Below are positions 10,762 through 16,856 of a stretch of 34,334 nt of DNA, piece after piece. How positions within the stretch are numbered: position 1 is the stretch's first letter; the number at the start of each line of letters is the position of its first letter. The stretch is from a virus. The position numbers and the translations under genes are program-made. The stretch lies in IMG/VR virus record IMGVR_UViG_3300034073_001020, positions 1-34,334 of that record. One strand, 5' to 3'. Below the pieces are notes generated by a model. The model was not told the DNA's origin. It searched no databases and worked only from the letters and a program-made list of their open reading frames with translations.

Positions 10762-10784
10762 GCGCGTGAAACCACGCGCGTTTT
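10762..10784 (+). terminator. Intrinsic terminator of the late operon
   Basis: Stem GCGCGTG (10762-10768), loop AAAC, stem CACGCGC (10773-10779), then G and four T. It lies 27 bases after the zinc-ribbon gene stop and just before the promoter at 10790. It separates the structural/lysis block from the accessory block. Confidence 0.75.
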
Positions 10785-10789
10785 CGTCG

Positions 10790-10818
10790 TTGAAGAACCC
10801 TACGGAATCGGATATAGT
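10790..10818 (+). promoter_or_regulatory. Strong sigma70-type promoter
   Basis: TTGAAG (10790-10795), a 17-base spacer and TATAGT (10813-10818) give a good vegetative promoter with start near 10825. It lies right after an intrinsic terminator and has no gene for about 600 bases downstream, so the first product is a long non-coding stretch. Confidence 0.65.
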
Positions 10819-11023
10819 TATGTCGTTGGATTCTTTGACATCTCGGGCATGGCGATGAAGCAACCGCACGCGGGAGACCGCGACGCGGCGCGACAGAAGT
10901 GGCGGCGTGATGAACGCACCACCGGATACGGCGAAGCAGCGAGAGGCGTTCCTCCGAGACCTGCACCGTACCGAAGACCGAACGGGATTGGATACGGCGA
11001 CCTTCAGCCGAGTGAATGACGAA

Positions 11024-11040
11024 AGAGGATGCGACCCTCT
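11024..11040 (+). repeat. Repeated hairpin, copy 1
   Basis: AGAGG, loop ATGCGAC, CCTCT. The identical 17-mer recurs at 11189-11205 with different flanks. Exact conservation of stem and loop in a non-coding stretch suggests a binding site or RNA motif. Confidence 0.6.
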
Positions 11041-11188
11041 GACGCACAGCACAAAGGCCGACAAGACGGCGCACGATCCGATGGAACCATATACGGTCAG
11101 CAGCAGAGCCAACAGCGCAGCACCCGACGGCTGCGCCAGCCCGAGACACAAGCAGACGCGGTGACAGCCGCGTGATGACGACCGAGCG

Positions 11189-11205
11189 AGAGGATGCGAC
11201 CCTCT
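11189..11205 (+). repeat. Repeated hairpin, copy 2
   Basis: Identical to 11024-11040: AGAGG, loop ATGCGAC, CCTCT. It lies 149 bases before the first three-hairpin leader element. Confidence 0.6.
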
Positions 11206-11337
11206 GTAAGCGGACAGCCCCACAAGCACCGCCGCTCGCCAACGAGTCACGCAGGAACGAGCCAGCGACGAACAGACCGAGACACGCCGACCGGGGCGTG
11301 GTAGTCAAGGAGATGGACGGAGCAATCCATCCAACAG

Positions 11338-11428
11338 CCGACCGCCGCCGAAAGGCGACGGTTCGGCATTCGCCCGTGCCGCGTGGCACGGGCTTTCAGT
11401 TCACGAAAGCCGCCGAGAGCGGCAGGAG
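11338..11428 (+). promoter_or_regulatory. Three-hairpin leader element, copy A
   Basis: Hairpin 1 (11338-11366) has a GAAA tetraloop at 11350-11353. Hairpin 2 (11372-11393) has perfect stems GCCCGTGCC and GGCACGGGC around loop GCGT. Hairpin 3 (11409-11423) has GCCGC and GCGGC around CGAGA. The Shine-Dalgarno AGGAG (11424-11428) follows hairpin 3 directly and the ATG is at 11435. Four more copies precede genes at 11828, 12679, 13406 and 14677. Stems change between copies by paired substitutions while both tetraloops are kept. Confidence 0.8.
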
Positions 11429-11434
11429 CATGAC

Positions 11435-11722
11435 ATGAAGAACGACAAGACCCTCGCCTTCCATCGCGCCAACTATGACGCAGCAGTCCGTGCAGACAAG
11501 CAGGCATGGCAGGCCCTTCAGAAGGCCGAGAAAGAATGGATGGCTGCTTCGAAGGAAGACCGTCCGAGCCTCTCGCGAAAGATCCCGCATCTGGAACGGG
11601 CAAGCGAGAAGGCGTGTAGCGACCTCGAACGAGCCGAACTAGTGCTGCTGCGCTACCTGTTGGCAGCAGCACCGAAAGGCTTGGCAACGGATGTGATCGA
11701 GTCCTACCGCGCCCTGCGCTGA
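11435..11722 (+). CDS. Unknown small helical protein
   Basis: This 95-residue protein is almost entirely charged helix, with heptad-like runs (AWQALQKAEKEWMAASKED, then RASEKACSDLERAELVLLRYLL), suggesting a coiled coil. The start has AGGAG seven bases upstream, at the foot of leader element A. It is the first gene of the accessory cluster and is followed directly by leader element B. No family recognised. Confidence 0.7.
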   Translation: MKNDKTLAFHRANYDAAVRADKQAWQALQKAEKEWMAASKEDRPSLSRKIPHLERASEKACSDLERAELVLLRYLLAAAPKGLATDVIESYRALR

Positions 11723-11728
11723 CCCACG

Positions 11729-11821
11729 CCACGCCGCCATCGAAAGGTGACGGCTGGCATTCACCCGGGTAGCGCGTGCTATCCGGGCTGTTACTTCAAG
11801 CGCCGCCCAGCGCGGCAAGGA
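11729..11821 (+). promoter_or_regulatory. Three-hairpin leader element, copy B
   Basis: Hairpin 1 (11729-11757) has GAAA at 11742-11745. Hairpin 2 (11764-11787) pairs CCCGGGTAGC with GCTATCCGGG around GCGT; relative to copies C and D a C-G pair is replaced by T-A. Hairpin 3 (11802-11816) is GCCGC, CCAGC, GCGGC. AAGGA (11817-11821) and ATG 11828 follow. It begins seven bases after the previous stop. Confidence 0.85.
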
Positions 11822-11827
11822 TTCACA

Positions 11828-12574
11828 ATGACCGAGATCGCTTCTATCGTCGCCAACCTCACCGCCGTCAGCACCGCGCTGGAGGGCGCGTGCAAGCAGT
11901 TGATCGCCACGGCACAGGCGATTCCCGCACAGGGCAACAGCACGCCAACCGAGATCGACCTCAAGCAGTTGGCCGACCACACGCTGCGTCACACCTCGCT
12001 GGTACGCGAGGTGGCTGGGCGGCTGGACATGAGCGTGCTGGCGCAGGAGTTCGACACCAGCGACATCGCGGGTGCCATCGACCTGTCCGACCTCGCCAAC
12101 GAGATCAGCGCACGCGACATCGCGGACGAGATCGACCTGAACGATCTACGCGACAAGTGCGTGGACGCGATGAGCATCGACATCGACACGGAGGAGATCG
12201 CACGCAAGGCCGCAGAGGAGATCGACGCGGCAGCCGTAGCGCAGGAGTTGGACACCGCGACCATCGCGGAGGAGATCGTAGATAGCCTGAACTTGGACGA
12301 GATGGCAGACAGCATTGCCAGCAGCCTTGACGCAGAGCAGCTGGAGGCCGTTGGCAGCAGCCTCTGCGACAGAATGAAGGACTGCCCCGACACGATGCGC
12401 GCGGTGCTGACCGCTCTATCGGCGGATCAGGACTTCGTCGCTACGCTCGCTCGCGCGATGGCAGAAGCGATGGTGCGTGGCACCGAACCGCAGGAGCCGC
12501 ACGGTGCCCGCGACACCTTCGTCCCGGCCAGCGAAGGCCCGGACGGCGAGCAGTGCAACGCCATGCAGGACTGA
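11828..12574 (+). CDS. Acidic nonapeptide-repeat protein
   Basis: This 248-residue protein has a period-nine repeat from about residue 42 to 174: any residue, Ile/Leu/Phe, Asp/Ser, three variable, Ile/Leu/Val, Ala, any. Examples are EIDLKQLAD (42-50), AIDLSDLAN (83-91) and ELDTATIAE (140-148). Units at 65-109 are in uninterrupted tandem, with further units at 118-126, 131-148 and 166-174. The protein is strongly acidic, which could suggest DNA mimicry or a solenoid/coiled-coil scaffold. The start is set by AAGGA at the end of leader element B. No known family was recognised. Confidence 0.75.
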   Translation: MTEIASIVANLTAVSTALEGACKQLIATAQAIPAQGNSTPTEIDLKQLADHTLRHTSLVREVAGRLDMSVLAQEFDTSDIAGAIDLSDLANEISARDIADEIDLNDLRDKCVDAMSIDIDTEEIARKAAEEIDAAAVAQELDTATIAEEIVDSLNLDEMADSIASSLDAEQLEAVGSSLCDRMKDCPDTMRAVLTALSADQDFVATLARAMAEAMVRGTEPQEPHGARDTFVPASEGPDGEQCNAMQD

Positions 12575-12580
12575 CCCAAG

Positions 12581-12672
12581 CCACGCCGTCACCGACAGGT
12601 GGCGGCTGGCATTCGCCCGGGCAGCGCGTGCTGCTCGGGCTGTTCCTTGAATGCCGCCGAGCGCGGCAGGAG
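12581..12672 (+). promoter_or_regulatory. Three-hairpin leader element, copy C
   Basis: Hairpin 1 (12581-12609) carries GACA at 12594-12597 instead of GAAA. Hairpin 2 (12615-12640) pairs GCCCGGGCAGC with GCTGCTCGGGC around GCGT. Hairpin 3 (12653-12667) is GCCGC, CGAGC, GCGGC. AGGAG (12668-12672) and ATG 12679 follow. Across 92 bases it differs from copy D at one position only, in the hairpin-1 loop. Confidence 0.85.
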
Positions 12673-12678
12673 ACTGCT

Positions 12679-13062
12679 ATGAGCCTGAACTGGAATGTGA
12701 CGAAGTGCGACCAGACCGCCTGCTGGACGAAGGACAAGGACGGTGACGCATTCATGTCCCCGATGTGCGAAGGACTGATCTGGACGACCATGGTGATAGA
12801 GATGGGTGAGATCACAGCGGCGAAGGTGGACGAGTTCGTGTGGCGCATGAACTTCCTGATCGAACACGGCGGTGCCGTGCTACAGAAGGATCGCGAAGGC
12901 ACGCCCTACACCGAGGACGACCTCAAGCCGTTCATCGGCCTGTTCACCAATGTGGTCACCAAGACACGAAAGCAGTGGCTGCAGTTGGTCATGAAGCAGT
13001 TGGAGCGCGACCACAACGCCGCCGAGCGTAGGCGCAAGGGACAGGAAGGAGGTGCAGCGTGA
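12679..13062 (+). CDS. Unknown protein in accessory cluster
   Basis: This 127-residue protein starts with LNWNVTKCDQTACW, has a mostly helical centre (WTTMVIEMGEITAAKVDEF) and a basic C-terminus ending in AERRRKGQEGG. Its N-terminal WNVTK resembles the WNVTE start of the 14677 product, so the two may share a short N-terminal motif. Leader element C gives the start through AGGAG. The next gene overlaps its stop (GTGA). I do not recognise a family; the fold may be helical and nucleic-acid-associated, but this is only composition-based. Confidence 0.7.
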   Translation: MSLNWNVTKCDQTACWTKDKDGDAFMSPMCEGLIWTTMVIEMGEITAAKVDEFVWRMNFLIEHGGAVLQKDREGTPYTEDDLKPFIGLFTNVVTKTRKQWLQLVMKQLERDHNAAERRRKGQEGGAA

Positions 13063-13301
13063 TTCGCGTAACTGTCGCAGAGATGTGCAGGCGGAAAGCG
13101 GCATTGGCTGTTGCCGTAGAGCAAGTCCGAGAAACCGAAGCGCGGATGGAGGCGTGCGAAGTGCTAGCCGCTATCGACGCGAAGTGGGAGCCGCGCCTAG
13201 ACCGAGCCATCCGCGGATGGCAGATTGCGCTAGACCGAGCCGACGAGGCACAACGGCTTGTAGAGGAAGCGGTACTAGCCACGCCGATTCAGCAGATGTA
13301 G
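13059..13301 (+). CDS. Unknown small helical protein
   Basis: This 80-residue protein starts at GTG 13059, overlapping the previous stop by four bases, with AGGAGG just upstream. The sequence is one long amphipathic helix rich in Ala, Arg and Glu (AALAVAVEQVRETEARMEA), likely a coiled coil. It is coupled to the 12679 gene and followed seven bases later by leader element D. Confidence 0.65.
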   Translation: MIRVTVAEMCRRKAALAVAVEQVRETEARMEACEVLAAIDAKWEPRLDRAIRGWQIALDRADEAQRLVEEAVLATPIQQM

Positions 13302-13307
13302 TACCTG

Positions 13308-13399
13308 CCACGCCGTCACCGAAAGGTGGCGGCTGGCATTCGCCCGGGCAGCGCGTGCTGCTCGGGCTGTTCCTTGAATGCCGCCGAGCGCGGCAGGAG
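13308..13399 (+). promoter_or_regulatory. Three-hairpin leader element, copy D
   Basis: Hairpin 1 (13308-13336) has GAAA at 13321-13324. Hairpin 2 (13342-13367) has loop GCGT at 13353-13356. Hairpin 3 (13380-13394) is followed by AGGAG (13395-13399) and ATG 13406. It is a near-perfect duplicate of copy C. Confidence 0.85.
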
Positions 13400-13405
13400 A
13401 TTGAC

Positions 13406-13948
13406 ATGAAGACGGATCAGGAGACATTGAAAGCGATCCACCCGCTGGCGTGGGATGTCGTGCAGCACCTTCGGCATGAGGGCGGCGTGCCCGACAGCGA
13501 CCTTGAGGGAACGCTGGACACCATCGCCCGTCACGGAGTGGAAGGAGGCATTGCAGGCTTCATCTATGACGAGGACTGCACGACCTTCCTGCGTAGGAGC
13601 GGCGTGATGGAGAAGGCGCAGATGGTGATGCGCGACTACGCGGACGGCATCGGTGAGCCGCTGTGGCGCGTGGCAGCACGCACCGCATCGCTGTCGTGCG
13701 TGTCGGATCGCGACATCGACAGCGACCAGCAGTTGCAGATTGACGGAGCGCGATTGCTGGCGTGGACGGAGGCAACGCTCACGCAGTTCGACTACCGCTG
13801 GCTGGCGGCGCGACTGGTGTGGTTCGTGGTGGTGCGGGTCGCCTACGCATTCGAGGACACCGATGTGGACTGGCGTGCAGGCGATCCGGGCGACCCGGAG
13901 CAGGCATGGGACGGCTACGGTGACATGGAAGGAGGCTGCCATGAGTAA
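13406..13948 (+). CDS. Unknown phage protein (DUF7222-like pattern)
   Basis: This 180-residue protein contains GIAGFIYDEDCTTFLRRSG and a later WRVAARTASLSCV segment. The pattern of a Gly-rich GFIYxxDxxxFxRR motif after a short helical N-terminus resembles a family of uncharacterised phage proteins, but no function is known. It is acidic at the C-terminus. The start is set by AGGAG at the end of leader element D. The following ATG at 13941 lies before its TAA, so the genes overlap by eight bases. Confidence 0.7.
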   Translation: MKTDQETLKAIHPLAWDVVQHLRHEGGVPDSDLEGTLDTIARHGVEGGIAGFIYDEDCTTFLRRSGVMEKAQMVMRDYADGIGEPLWRVAARTASLSCVSDRDIDSDQQLQIDGARLLAWTEATLTQFDYRWLAARLVWFVVVRVAYAFEDTDVDWRAGDPGDPEQAWDGYGDMEGGCHE

Positions 13949-14252
13949 GGCGCACGCCGACTTCATTCGGTCGCACCTGCTGTCCGTCATTCGCAAGGTG
14001 TCGAAGACGGACGGGGCGCACCCGAACCGTGCGGTGCTTGAGTCCGCGAGCAACCGCATCACGCTTGCGACACAGGCCATGGCCATGATCGACTGCATGG
14101 AGGTCGATCCGGTGCGGTTCGCGGCAGCGTTGCGGATGCCATTGCCCATGCACTGGTCGCTGATGACCGAGCCGGAACGCGAGGCGTGGGCGCGGTGCTA
14201 CATCGACGCGGTGACCCCGAAGCGGAAGGAGGCCGACGATGGAGTGGCCTGA
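13941..14252 (+). CDS. Unknown small protein
   Basis: This 103-residue protein starts at ATG 13941 with GGAGG eight bases upstream. It is helical with many Met residues (ATQAMAMIDCMEV) and ends RKEADDGVA. It overlaps both neighbours, so translation of 13406, 13941 and 14239 is probably coupled and driven by leader element D. No family recognised. Confidence 0.65.
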   Translation: MSKAHADFIRSHLLSVIRKVSKTDGAHPNRAVLESASNRITLATQAMAMIDCMEVDPVRFAAALRMPLPMHWSLMTEPEREAWARCYIDAVTPKRKEADDGVA

Positions 14253-14577
14253 ACCGCCAGACGACTACGAGTTGGTCGCCGAGTTCGTTGAGATTAAGGT
14301 GCGTGCCAGCATCGTGGGCACGCAGTTCAGCCTCGACTTCACGGTGCGTGGTCAGGTGGAACCCGGATCACGGGTGCAGGACAACGCTGACCTCATCGCC
14401 GCAGTTGGTGCGGCCATGATGGTCGTGTGGGAGAGCGCATGGGAGCAGCGCAAGGCGGACACCTTGTCGCTGCAGTACCAGTGCCTTCGGCGCGTGTGCG
14501 TGCTGACGGCAGACACGGCGAGCCTGCCCATAGACGCGGTCGCGAACGCGGCGCGTGAACTGGTGCAGGAAGGCTGA
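14239..14577 (+). CDS. Unknown small protein
   Basis: This 112-residue protein has a beta-strand-rich N-terminal half (YELVAEFVEIKVRASIVG) and a helical C-terminal half. The start ATG 14239 has GGAGG upstream and overlaps the previous gene by 14 bases. It ends just before leader element E. No family recognised. Confidence 0.65.
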   Translation: MEWPEPPDDYELVAEFVEIKVRASIVGTQFSLDFTVRGQVEPGSRVQDNADLIAAVGAAMMVVWESAWEQRKADTLSLQYQCLRRVCVLTADTASLPIDAVANAARELVQEG

Positions 14578-14579
14578 CC

Positions 14580-14670
14580 GGGCGGCGTGCCGGAAACGGT
14601 GCGCCGTCCATTGCCCGTGCAGCGCGTGCTGACCGGGCGTTACTTCAATCGCCGCCGAGTGCGGCAAGGA
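14580..14670 (+). promoter_or_regulatory. Three-hairpin leader element, copy E
   Basis: Hairpin 1 (14580-14609) has a fully paired 12-bp stem (GGCGGCGTGCCG with CGGTGCGCCGTC, counting G-T pairs) and loop GAAA at 14593-14596. Its sequence is quite different from copies A-D, so the structure is conserved over the sequence. Hairpin 2 (14613-14638) keeps loop GCGT but has two internal mismatches. Hairpin 3 (14651-14665) is GCCGC, CGAGT, GCGGC. AAGGA (14666-14670) and ATG 14677 follow. Confidence 0.85.
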
Positions 14671-14676
14671 TCTGAC

Positions 14677-15561
14677 ATGACTTGGAATGTGACCGAAGTG
14701 GCTGGATCGAAGTTGGTGCTGCACTGCGGCGCGAACCGCGTGGACTGGAACGAGGTGCGTGCGGTGAAGACGCCGCCGGCGACCGCGACCCACTGCCCGG
14801 TGCCGCACGACTTCCTCGTGGAGCAGGTGCGCGAGGGGTTGGACATGATGGGCTTCCACATCAGCGAGGAGTGCCACGCGCTGTACGGTGGAGGGTTGCG
14901 GTACTTCGGCCTGCTTGCGCTGAAGGCCAAGGTGGGGCACGACATCGGTGGCGACAACGAGATCGGGCAAGGCAGGCGGTTCGTGTTCGGCATCCGCAAC
15001 GGCAACGACATGAGCCTGCCTGCAGGCGGCGTGCTGGGCACGCAGGTCTTCGTCTGCGACAACCTCGCGATGCACAGCGGAGACACCATGTTCCGTTTCG
15101 CACGCAAGCACACGCGCTGGGCGCTGCGCGACCTGCCGCAGATCATCGCCACGCGCATCGGCAACCTACGGCTGGCGATGCAGAGCGTGACCGAGCGCGA
15201 GAATGCCTACGCACGGTTCGACTTCCGCGAGGCTGACGAGCAGGCAGGCGTGCGGCGCGGCACGATCCTCAACGACTGCCTCATGCGGTGCCTGCGAAGC
15301 GGAGCGATCACGACCACGGCCCTGCCGCACATCGTGAAGGAGTTCGACCGTGCAGACGGCCCGGGCGGTCACGCGCACGCTGGCGAGGCATGGCAGCGGC
15401 CAACGCTGTTCCGTTTGCTTCAGTCGGTCACCGAGGTGGAGAAGGAGCGTCCGGGTCTGCTCAACCTCACGCGCAGGCATTCGCGCTTGCACGGGATCTT
15501 CGACTCCATCGCTGCAGGCACAGACATCGTGGACGCGGAGGCAACGGAAGTCGAAGTCTGA
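14677..15561 (+). CDS. DUF932-like phage protein
   Basis: This 294-residue protein contains GTQVFVCDNLAMHSGD near the middle, preceded by FGIRNGNDMSLP and followed by a long helical region. The segment resembles the core of DUF932 / phage-plasmid-like proteins (VCxNGL or CDNLA motif), which are widespread in phages and plasmids with no settled biochemical role. Leader element E provides AAGGA upstream. It is the last gene of the accessory cluster; a GC-rich hairpin (15573-15608) follows. Confidence 0.65.
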   Translation: MTWNVTEVAGSKLVLHCGANRVDWNEVRAVKTPPATATHCPVPHDFLVEQVREGLDMMGFHISEECHALYGGGLRYFGLLALKAKVGHDIGGDNEIGQGRRFVFGIRNGNDMSLPAGGVLGTQVFVCDNLAMHSGDTMFRFARKHTRWALRDLPQIIATRIGNLRLAMQSVTERENAYARFDFREADEQAGVRRGTILNDCLMRCLRSGAITTTALPHIVKEFDRADGPGGHAHAGEAWQRPTLFRLLQSVTEVEKERPGLLNLTRRHSRLHGIFDSIAAGTDIVDAEATEVEV

Positions 15562-15572
15562 CGCTCAAGAAA

Positions 15573-15608
15573 GCCGCCGCCCCGGATCGCGTGCTCCGGG
15601 GCGGCGGC
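15573..15608 (+). terminator. GC-rich hairpin after the accessory cluster
   Basis: A perfect 14-bp stem (15573-15586 with 15595-15608) encloses TCGCGTGC, which contains the same GCGT as hairpin 2 of the leader elements. It lies 11 bases after the stop of the 14677 gene. No T-tract follows, so it may act as an RNA stabiliser, a Rho-independent terminator of low efficiency, or a processing site. Confidence 0.5.
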
Positions 15609-15663
15609 GAGCGCAGAGAGGAATCAGCGGCAGCATCATAGCAACCGACGAGAACCAAATGGC

Positions 15664-15678
15664 TGTCAAACTTTGACG
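15664..15678. promoter_or_regulatory. Palindromic operator site 1
   Basis: TGTCAAACTTTGACG, 14 of 15 bases of the palindrome TGTCAAACTTTGACA found at 25665. With site 2 it forms a perfect 16-bp inverted repeat (15663-15678 and 15686-15701, seven-base spacer) just upstream of the HTH gene. Confidence 0.7.
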
Positions 15679-15685
15679 CGCTGCC

Positions 15686-15700
15686 CGTCAAAGTTTGACA
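15686..15700. promoter_or_regulatory. Palindromic operator site 2
   Basis: CGTCAAAGTTTGACA is the mirror copy of site 1. It contains TTGACA (15695-15700), which could be a -35 box, but no good -10 lies at 16-18 bases. It lies 17 bases before the ATG of the HTH gene, fitting autoregulation. Confidence 0.7.
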
Positions 15701-15717
15701 GTTGAGAGGCAGTTGCG

Positions 15718-15927
15718 ATGGCGATATCTTTCGCCTCCATGAATCACATCACCACCAAACAGATTGCGGAAAGCATCGGTGTGACGCCGTGTCGCGTGTT
15801 GCAGTTGGCATCATCTCGCGGCATCAAGCCGACCCGAGTTGGGAGCGCGTATGTGTGGCCGCGCGAAGTGTTGAGCAAGTTCAAGCGTCGAAGCCCGGGG
15901 AGACCCGTGCAGAAAGGAAAGCGATGA
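15718..15927 (+). CDS. Small HTH (MerR/excisionase-type) DNA-binding protein
   Basis: This 69-residue protein contains TTKQIAESIGVTPCRVLQLA, a helix-turn-helix of the HTH_17/excisionase style, then a GSAYVWPREVL wing-like strand and a basic tail (KFKRRSPGRPVQKGKR). The start at 15718 has AGAGG upstream; an internal ATG at 15739 has none. It probably binds DNA, and the paired palindrome just upstream is the obvious candidate target. It is the first gene of the recombination operon and overlaps YqaJ by ATGA. Confidence 0.75.
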   Translation: MAISFASMNHITTKQIAESIGVTPCRVLQLASSRGIKPTRVGSAYVWPREVLSKFKRRSPGRPVQKGKR

Positions 15928-16856
15928 TTACGGACAAGCAGGAGAGCGAACGCATGAAGGGCATCGGATCGTCCGATGTCCCGACCATTCTCGGGCTAAA
16001 CCCGTGGGCGACCCCGCACGACCTATGGCTGGTCAAGACGGGGCAGGCGGATGGCCCGGAGGAGAACGATGCGATGCGAATCGGTACGGTGCTTGAGGCA
16101 GGCGTGCTGCAACTGGCATCGGATCGCCTTGGCGCGAAGATCGTGAAGCCCACCAGCACCTTCGTCGGGTGCGAGTTGTTCATGCGAGCGAATGTGGACG
16201 GGATGATCGGCGTTGCCAAGCGCGGTTCGCCAATCGTGGAGGCGAAGACCACAGGCCGCACCGAAGGCTGGGGCGATGAAGGCACGGACGAGGTGCCCGA
16301 AGCCGTGAAGGCGCAGGTCATGTTCCAGATGCTCTGCGCGAGCAGCGACATCGCTCATGTCGCGTGTCTGCAAGGCGACTACGGCTTGCGCCTCAAGATG
16401 TACCGCGTTCCCTTCTGCGCGGACTACGCAGGCTACATCGTGGAGCGTGTGCGCGAGTTCTGGACGCGCCATGTGGAGCGGCGCGTTGCGCCTGCAGGCT
16501 TGCCAAGCCTTGAGGTGCTGAAGCGCATACGGCGGGATGCAGACGCGCCGCCAGTGCAGATCGACCCGGCCCTGTTCATCGAAGACGCGCGATGCCAGCG
16601 GCTGCTCAAGGAGGCCGAGGCGACCGCCGATGCTGCGCGTGCAGCACTCATGGTCGCGCTGGGCACGGCCACCGCAGGTGAGGGCGGCGGCTACCGCATG
16701 AAGGTCAGCAAGGTGGAGACCTCGCGATTCGATGCCAAGGCATTCGCCGAGGCGAACCCGGAAGAAGCAGCGAAGTGGACTGTCCGCTCCGGCTACAACC
16801 GGACAACCGTGACCGCTCCGAAGGCGGCACCCAGCAAGAAGGAGTTCGTGCGATGA
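15924..16856 (+). CDS. YqaJ-type recombination exonuclease
   Basis: This 310-residue nuclease degrades one strand from double-stranded DNA ends to make substrate for the annealing protein encoded next. Family motifs are visible: GIGSSDVPTILGLNPW near residue 13, RIGTVLEAGV with Glu58, NVDGMI with Asp92, IVEAKTT with Glu106 and Lys108, and AVKAQVMFQ with Gln131 and Gln135. These form the restriction-endonuclease-like active site. The start overlaps the HTH stop, and the stop overlaps the ERF-type gene start, a classic nuclease/annealase pair. Confidence 0.9.
   Translation: MITDKQESERMKGIGSSDVPTILGLNPWATPHDLWLVKTGQADGPEENDAMRIGTVLEAGVLQLASDRLGAKIVKPTSTFVGCELFMRANVDGMIGVAKRGSPIVEAKTTGRTEGWGDEGTDEVPEAVKAQVMFQMLCASSDIAHVACLQGDYGLRLKMYRVPFCADYAGYIVERVREFWTRHVERRVAPAGLPSLEVLKRIRRDADAPPVQIDPALFIEDARCQRLLKEAEATADAARAALMVALGTATAGEGGGYRMKVSKVETSRFDAKAFAEANPEEAAKWTVRSGYNRTTVTAPKAAPSKKEFVR

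Follow-up and report, generated by a model that had tools for sequence, protein, structure and literature searches.

The DNA analysed here (the window) is a 34.3-kb virus record of 34,334 nucleotides (nt; IMGVR_UViG_3300034073_001020), which carries a 127-bp direct repeat at both ends and is therefore probably a complete phage genome. Between the end of its structural genes and a RecE/YqaJ-type exonuclease gene (15924–16856, plus strand) sits a cluster of genes preceded by five copies of a structured leader. Each leader comprises two hairpins (H1 and H2), a linker, and a third hairpin (H3) followed by the Shine-Dalgarno (SD) sequence and start codon of a downstream gene.

The five leaders and their genes

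All five leaders, and the genes that follow them, lie on the plus strand. Leader A (11337–11434) is made up of H1 at 11337–11367, H2 at 11372–11393, H3 at 11409–11423, and the SD sequence AGGAG at 11424–11428, and leads to the ATG at 11435 of a gene encoding 95 amino acids (aa; 11435–11722). Leader B (11728–11827; H1 11728–11758, H2 11764–11787, H3 11802–11816, SD AAGGA 11817–11821) stands before the ATG at 11828, where the gene for a 248-aa protein with a repeated ..DIA.EIDL.. motif begins (11828–12574). Leader C (12580–12678; H1 12580–12610, H2 12615–12640, H3 12653–12667, SD AGGAG 12668–12672, ATG 12679) serves a 127-aa member of the MSLNWN family (12679–13062) and an overlapping gene at 13059–13301. 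Leader D (13307–13405; H1 13307–13337, H2 13342–13367, H3 13380–13394, SD AGGAG 13395–13399, ATG 13406) is followed by a 180-aa gene with a weak DUF7222 match (13406–13948) and by overlapping genes at 13941–14252 and 14239–14577. Finally, leader E (14580–14676; H1 14580–14609, H2 14613–14638, H3 14651–14665, SD AAGGA 14666–14670, ATG 14677) precedes a 294-aa gene that is DUF932-like by homology (14677–15561). When a covariance model built from the five copies was searched against the 34 kb with cmsearch, exactly these five strong sites were returned (86, 106, 118, 121, and 88 bits for A to E, respectively), the next best site scoring 20 bits.

The copies, loops, H3, SD sequences, and start codons are all where a first-pass annotation of the DNA had placed them (11337–14679). 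At ~98–102 nt from H1 to the ATG, the element is slightly longer than the ~92 nt originally given. The H1 loop reads GAAA (GACA in C) and the H2 loop GCGT in all five copies; H1 of copy E differs in sequence, yet forms a fully paired 13-bp stem, and its CCG-GAAA-CGG type is common to the orthologous leader in two relatives, L006 and L008. The leaders are more stable than dinucleotide shuffles, with z-scores of approximately −4.2 to −4.5 (A), −2.0 (B), −4.1 (C), −5.3 (D), and −2.8 (E), leader B being the only weak one, as 10 of 200 shuffles folded equally well. That every gene not coupled to its neighbour by overlap has a leader holds from 11.4 to 15.6 kb; the next gene downstream, encoding a small helix-turn-helix (HTH) protein (15718), is preceded by a different, leader-less hairpin region.

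A fold conserved by compensation

Relatives were found independently of the leader, via the exonuclease and the DUF932-like protein of gene E. All of them are metagenomic, and because several contigs are fragments or near-duplicates, the copy counts given below are minimum values and are not independent of one another. Among 50,697 annotated phages, searched at both the nucleotide and the protein level, there was no close relative, the only matches being DUF932 proteins of 27–30% identity in Salinibacter phages and one 26% match in a Microcoleus phage. RecE relatives were sought in bacterial genomes and none was found, and the leader is absent from 77 bacterial loci with DUF932 relatives.

The close relatives (clade 1) carry four leaders in L006/L007, four in L008, and six in L012. 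In L010/L011 the leaders are a variant with other H1 and H2 sequences and the same H3; three of these (L010 4283 and 6002; L011 5771) begin with CCCTTGCGG..TAYRGTTACYGCATCG, which resembles an extended −10 promoter, and these units may therefore have their own promoters. The more distant clade 2 (L173–L184), which has ~40% identity in gene E, has two to nine leaders per contig. A model built from clade 2 only (R3) matches four of the window copies (E-values of 1.7e-8 to 4.5e-6), so that the two clades share a homologous RNA. One more independent contig of phage origin (L325), located only through the pattern of the noncoding RNA described below, carries four leaders scoring 47–97 bits. More distantly, six contigs (L206, L207, L216, L219, L221, and L227) have a two-hairpin version before the same DUF932-like gene; in L206, L207, L216, L219, and L227, a U-run comes after the second hairpin, just ahead of the SD sequence, and this terminator-like structure is a candidate attenuator. 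Across viral contigs, an H2 plus H3 pattern matched only known relatives, single-hairpin prophage-like contigs (L071 and L120), and L132, where the match lies inside a terminase gene and was rejected as chance. Two clade-2 pattern matches beyond the relatives (L335 and L336) were likewise set aside, as neither had model support and that in L335 falls in coding-like sequence. Approximately 60 distinct natural variants of the leader are now aligned, and the covariance model makes the family searchable.

Across the variants, pairing is retained as the stem sequences change. In alignments fitted to the models, 23 of 27 pairs were changed on both sides among the 21 distinct copies of clade 1, with 96.4% of cells paired, and 19 of 22 among the 40 distinct copies of clade 2, with 99.0% paired. 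None of 500 shuffles of clade 1 reached any of the measures (75% of their cells were paired), and controls in which the structure was slid along gave 29–53%. RNAalifold recovered all of H1, H2, and H3 from a plain MAFFT alignment of clade 2, in which both sides had changed in 14 of 22 pairs. Even H3, which is nearly invariant in the window, compensates (GCCGC/GCGGC, GCGGC/GCCGC, GCTGC/GCAGC, and GATGC/GCATC). On the gene-sense strand there are 27 G-U (G-T) cells versus 9 A-C cells, an excess that is expected if the sense RNA, rather than double-stranded DNA, is under selection; the rows are related, so that this count is supporting evidence only.

The paired changes that had been noticed in the stems are therefore part of a very strong compensation, found in two independent clades and exceeding both shuffled and slid controls. 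Searches with Rfam of the window and eight relatives, at gathering and relaxed thresholds, yielded no family that reached its threshold, only sub-threshold matches with E-values of 0.6–0.8. The sole such match on the sense strand (RF03012, Mu-gpT-DE, to H3 of leader D at 18.8 bits and an E-value of 0.6, against a gathering threshold of 49 bits) was treated as chance. Taken together with the covariation and the G-U excess, these results bear out the first-pass description of a phage RNA element other than a known riboswitch. Nor is it an ordinary mobile repeat, as the copies occur only at gene starts, on one strand, and in one cluster. We conclude that the leader is a conserved RNA structure, neither chance nor a mobile repeat. 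Since the fold is retained while the letters change, it is a real RNA device, previously uncatalogued and probably used for the start of translation. In this group of uncultured phages it precedes nearly all early genes that are translated independently.

H1 is 11–13 bp long, its base frequently carries a bulged C, and its loop is GAAA in clade 1 and nearly random in clade 2. As the clade-2 loops vary freely, recognition of the GAAA loop in the manner of BoxB and lambda N was rejected. By contrast, the H2 loop, or the sequence adjoining it, retains CGU in 20 of the 21 distinct copies of clade 1 and 28 of the 40 of clade 2, while the H2 stem varies freely. The linker (the 12 nt before H3) contains 7% G, 34% A, 36% C, and 23% T in genomes that are GC-rich, and has a mean predicted unpaired probability of 0.66. 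From the end of H3 to the ATG there are 11–16 nt in 47 of the 48 copies where H3 was found, and 19 nt in the remaining one.

Placement was analysed with a simple codon-based gene caller in ten clusters. Leader-bearing starts typically lie 92–121 nt after the upstream stop codon, so that the leader fills the intercistronic gap, whereas leader-less starts in the same clusters lie −26 to +36 nt from it and overlap or nearly touch the preceding gene. Outliers such as 290, 348, and −29 nt are due to missed or spurious small open reading frames, such as that at 13941–14252 of the window, which overlaps both of its neighbours. The first gene of each array also carries a leader although no gene abuts it upstream, and the leader thus belongs to the gene downstream. 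These downstream genes form orthologous families that are mutually unrelated within one genome. Leaders C and D are ~95% identical and their genes unrelated; most L012 leaders are nearest to each other, but the one before gene E is instead nearest its orthologues. Leaders have thus been inherited with genes and, in addition, duplicated from one gene to another. Genes B and C stand in a different order in the window than in L006, L008, and L012.

The upstream region and neighbouring structures

A terminator-like hairpin (10762–10779, plus strand) closes the upstream structural-gene operon, and the ~560 nt between it and leader A hold no convincing gene. A candidate early promoter, TTGAAG-17-TATAGT, lies at 10790–10818 on the plus strand, with the counterparts TTGACC-17-TAATAT in L175 and TTGCAG-18-TATACT in L325. 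Between the promoter and leader A, alignment and RNAalifold delimit a large structured noncoding RNA (ncRNA; 10817–11302, plus strand). Its counterparts align in L006 (3826–4325), L008 (3302–3815), L012 (2820–3280), and L325 (1290–1825, minus strand), and clade 2 has a similar region (L177 4235–4690). Based on these few sequences (the window and the four aligned relatives) and a simple null, the RNAalifold energy is −106.9 kcal/mol versus −55.9 (standard deviation 5.2) for column shuffles, and 46 pairs are doubly changed versus a shuffle mean of 13 and a maximum of 22. The ncRNA (~460–490 nt) has no match in Rfam, and is possibly a new large phage ncRNA. A repeated hairpin, GAGAGGATGCGACCCTC, occurs within the region at 11026 and 11191 of the window and at 4041 in L006, where the second copy has diverged.

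Shortly after the promoter is a boxA-like sequence, TCTTTGACA (10832–10840, plus strand), which has a single intergenic occurrence in each of 10 relatives out of 10 compared, 13–30 nt 3′ of a −10-like hexamer. Its core, GCTCTTTGACA, is found ~239 nt upstream of the 16S rRNA gene at locus L328, in the Parerythrobacter genome that also holds L290, which fits an rRNA-type boxA. The position and invariance of TCTTTGACA fit a boxA; compared with the gamma-proteobacterial boxA consensus, GYTCTTTAANA (PMC5725501), it differs at the first A. An invariant boxA-like site directly behind the putative early promoter is suggestive of Nus-dependent antitermination of an untranslated early leader. Tentatively, the order of these parts may be read as an rRNA-like early transcript composed of promoter, boxA, ~460-nt ncRNA, and leader array, in which the ncRNA or an antitermination complex loaded at boxA could form, together with the leaders, a phage-encoded expression system. 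If so, it would be a natural RNA-insulated modular operon without a known counterpart. The ncRNA, with its boxA-like site, is a further candidate for the small set of large ncRNAs from phages.

Downstream of the cluster, the DUF932-like gene is followed by a long GC hairpin and then by a conserved GAGCGCAGARAGGARTCAGC (window 15573–15625; L006 7870–7925; L008 7655–7705), which is SD-like but has no clear start codon, and is possibly a decayed or different leader. A 16-bp palindrome, CTGTCAAACTTTGACG (15663–15701), lies just 5′ of the small HTH gene (15718–15927; weak HTH_17 match) and is likely the operator of that gene or another leader; L006 has an unrelated palindrome before the same gene position. 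The exonuclease gene that served as an anchor for finding relatives lies 3′ of the leader cluster. Elsewhere in the genome are the tail tape measure (2.5–5.9 kb), a helicase (18.6–20.4 kb), and the terminase, portal, and head genes (26–32 kb).

Possible functions and known systems

The RNA-type conserved fold, the position at gene starts, the copy number, and the spread within genomes are established, and it is the position and anatomy of the leader that lead us to favour a role in translation initiation. We consider, with a probability of roughly 0.6, that each leader is a cis-acting translation-initiation module in a polycistronic early transcript, making each cistron independent. The stable H1 and H2, which start ~0–20 nt from the stop codon of the preceding gene and take up the space between the cistrons, would isolate the new start from the terminating ribosome upstream and, the transcript being GC-rich, from pairing over long distances. 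The G-poor, single-stranded linker and the short GC hairpin H3, which adjoins the SD sequence and keeps a constant spacing to the start codon, could then give the 30S subunit a defined landing site, such that each cistron would be initiated on its own and all at similar rates. With less confidence, the CGU conserved in the H2 loop may serve as a binding point for a factor from host or phage.

Several observations weigh against this proposal. The H2 loop is more conserved than a passive insulator would need, and other phages separate their genes by overlaps or short gaps without such leaders. The predicted accessibility of the SD sequence is just moderate (mean unpaired probability of 0.55), and the linker of copies C and D is able to pair with it, which makes repression possible. 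As this pairing is not kept across copies, sequestration by an anti-SD sequence was rejected as a general switch.

An unlikely alternative is that the leaders are sites for one trans-acting factor, such as a phage or host RNA-binding protein, an antisense RNA, or the upstream ncRNA, which would switch the early gene set at the level of translation. Such a factor would account for the CGU retained above a varying H2 stem, for the similarity of copies within a genome, and for the large structured ncRNA directly upstream in the same region. However, the H1 loops of any one clade-2 genome are random, the analysis brought up no candidate RNA-binding protein, and complementarity between ncRNA and leaders was not demonstrated. 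Less likely again is that the leaders are RNase processing or mRNA-stability elements, which cut the polycistronic transcript into units and protect their ends. There is one stable intercistronic structure per unit, with an H1 of 11–13 bp, and a cut at the base of the five-pair H3 before the SD sequence would give the mRNA a short 5′ end of defined position. A leader is nevertheless present at the first unit too, and the last gene has no trailing one, which is not the behaviour of a 3′-end protector. A cleavage signature cannot be read from sequence, and direct evidence of RNA cleavage was neither looked for nor found.

We regard as highly improbable that the leaders act by transcriptional attenuation or antitermination, with H2 as a terminator, or H1 and H2 as a put-like RNA bound to RNA polymerase. 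A terminator scan with a lax pattern did score H2 and the tail of copies A–D as terminator-like (tails UGUUCCUUGA and UUUCAGUUCA), the distant phages L206, L207, L216, and L219 have an H2-like hairpin followed by TTTTCTTTTTT before the DUF932 gene, and there is the boxA-like site at the start of the transcript. Yet the window and clade 2 lack a proper U-run after H2, a true one being found only in the L206-type relatives, and control of transcription would not need the constant spacing that is seen between the end of the leader and the start codon. Moreover, the put sites of phage HK022 are two copies, each below an early promoter, rather than one before every gene (PMC9378689). A DNA-level element, whether a palindrome bound by a protein, a hotspot of recombination, or a mobile repeat, in which RNA folding would be incidental, is hardly credible. 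The leaders are palindromic and have spread between unrelated genes, and they may have favoured the swap of genes B and C relative to L006, L008, and L012, but compensatory changes accompany the free divergence of their stems, the sense strand accepts three times as many G-U as A-C cells, and all copies sit on an SD sequence in the same orientation.

A single-hairpin ribosome-binding-site leader, CCACCTTCTGCCGCCCAGCGCGGCAAGGACACCCCATG, was observed before at least three unrelated small genes in ~100 prophage-like contigs (L013–L131, e.g. L014, L022, and L029), with annotated matches in Pseudomonas phages phiAH14a and SC_8_H2H8_2017; its CCTT could pair with AAGG. This Pseudomonas-type leader is near-identical to ours in H3 and SD sequence but lacks H1 and H2, and chance or convergence is possible.

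The nearest concept to the leaders is that of the start-associated sequences (SAS) and extended start-associated sequences (ESAS) of cluster K mycobacteriophages, described in 2011 (PMC3203893). These are repeated in one phage genome, in one orientation, at the ribosome-binding site or start codon of unrelated, exclusively non-structural genes, often with an inverted repeat just upstream whose sequence differs between subclusters (PMC3203893). The SAS is a 13-bp conserved sequence, GGGATAGGAGCCC, and according to its authors the ESAS repeats do not support RNA pairing (PMC3203893). Our leaders are likewise multi-copy, in one orientation, and immediately 5′ of the start codons of non-structural genes. 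Unlike the ESAS, they are strongly compensated and have three hairpins, and the window contains no match to GGGATAGGAGCCC with up to two mismatches. Covariation is thus a means of telling an RNA leader apart from the start-associated repeats that have long gone unexplained in other phages.

The put RNA of HK022 binds the beta′ zinc-binding domain of RNA polymerase and suppresses termination. It consists of two adjacent stem-loops (~70 nt), with one such RNA below each of the two early promoters, and has RNA polymerase as its target (PMC9378689). The leaders resemble it in being adjacent stable stem-loops in a phage early transcript, but differ in being present in up to nine copies, each fused to a ribosome-binding site, and in having H3 in addition.

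Synthetic hairpin insulators, operons processed by ribozymes or Csy4, and standby sites all rely on structure before the ribosome-binding site to free cistrons from their neighbours, or on a single-stranded landing site set by a hairpin. No processing nuclease is known for the leaders. They differ from these systems in being natural, in belonging to phages, and in having a conserved three-hairpin fold. If they do act as translation-initiation modules, they would be the natural counterpart of hand-built synthetic cassettes, a reusable structured RNA through which every gene in an operon is started separately.

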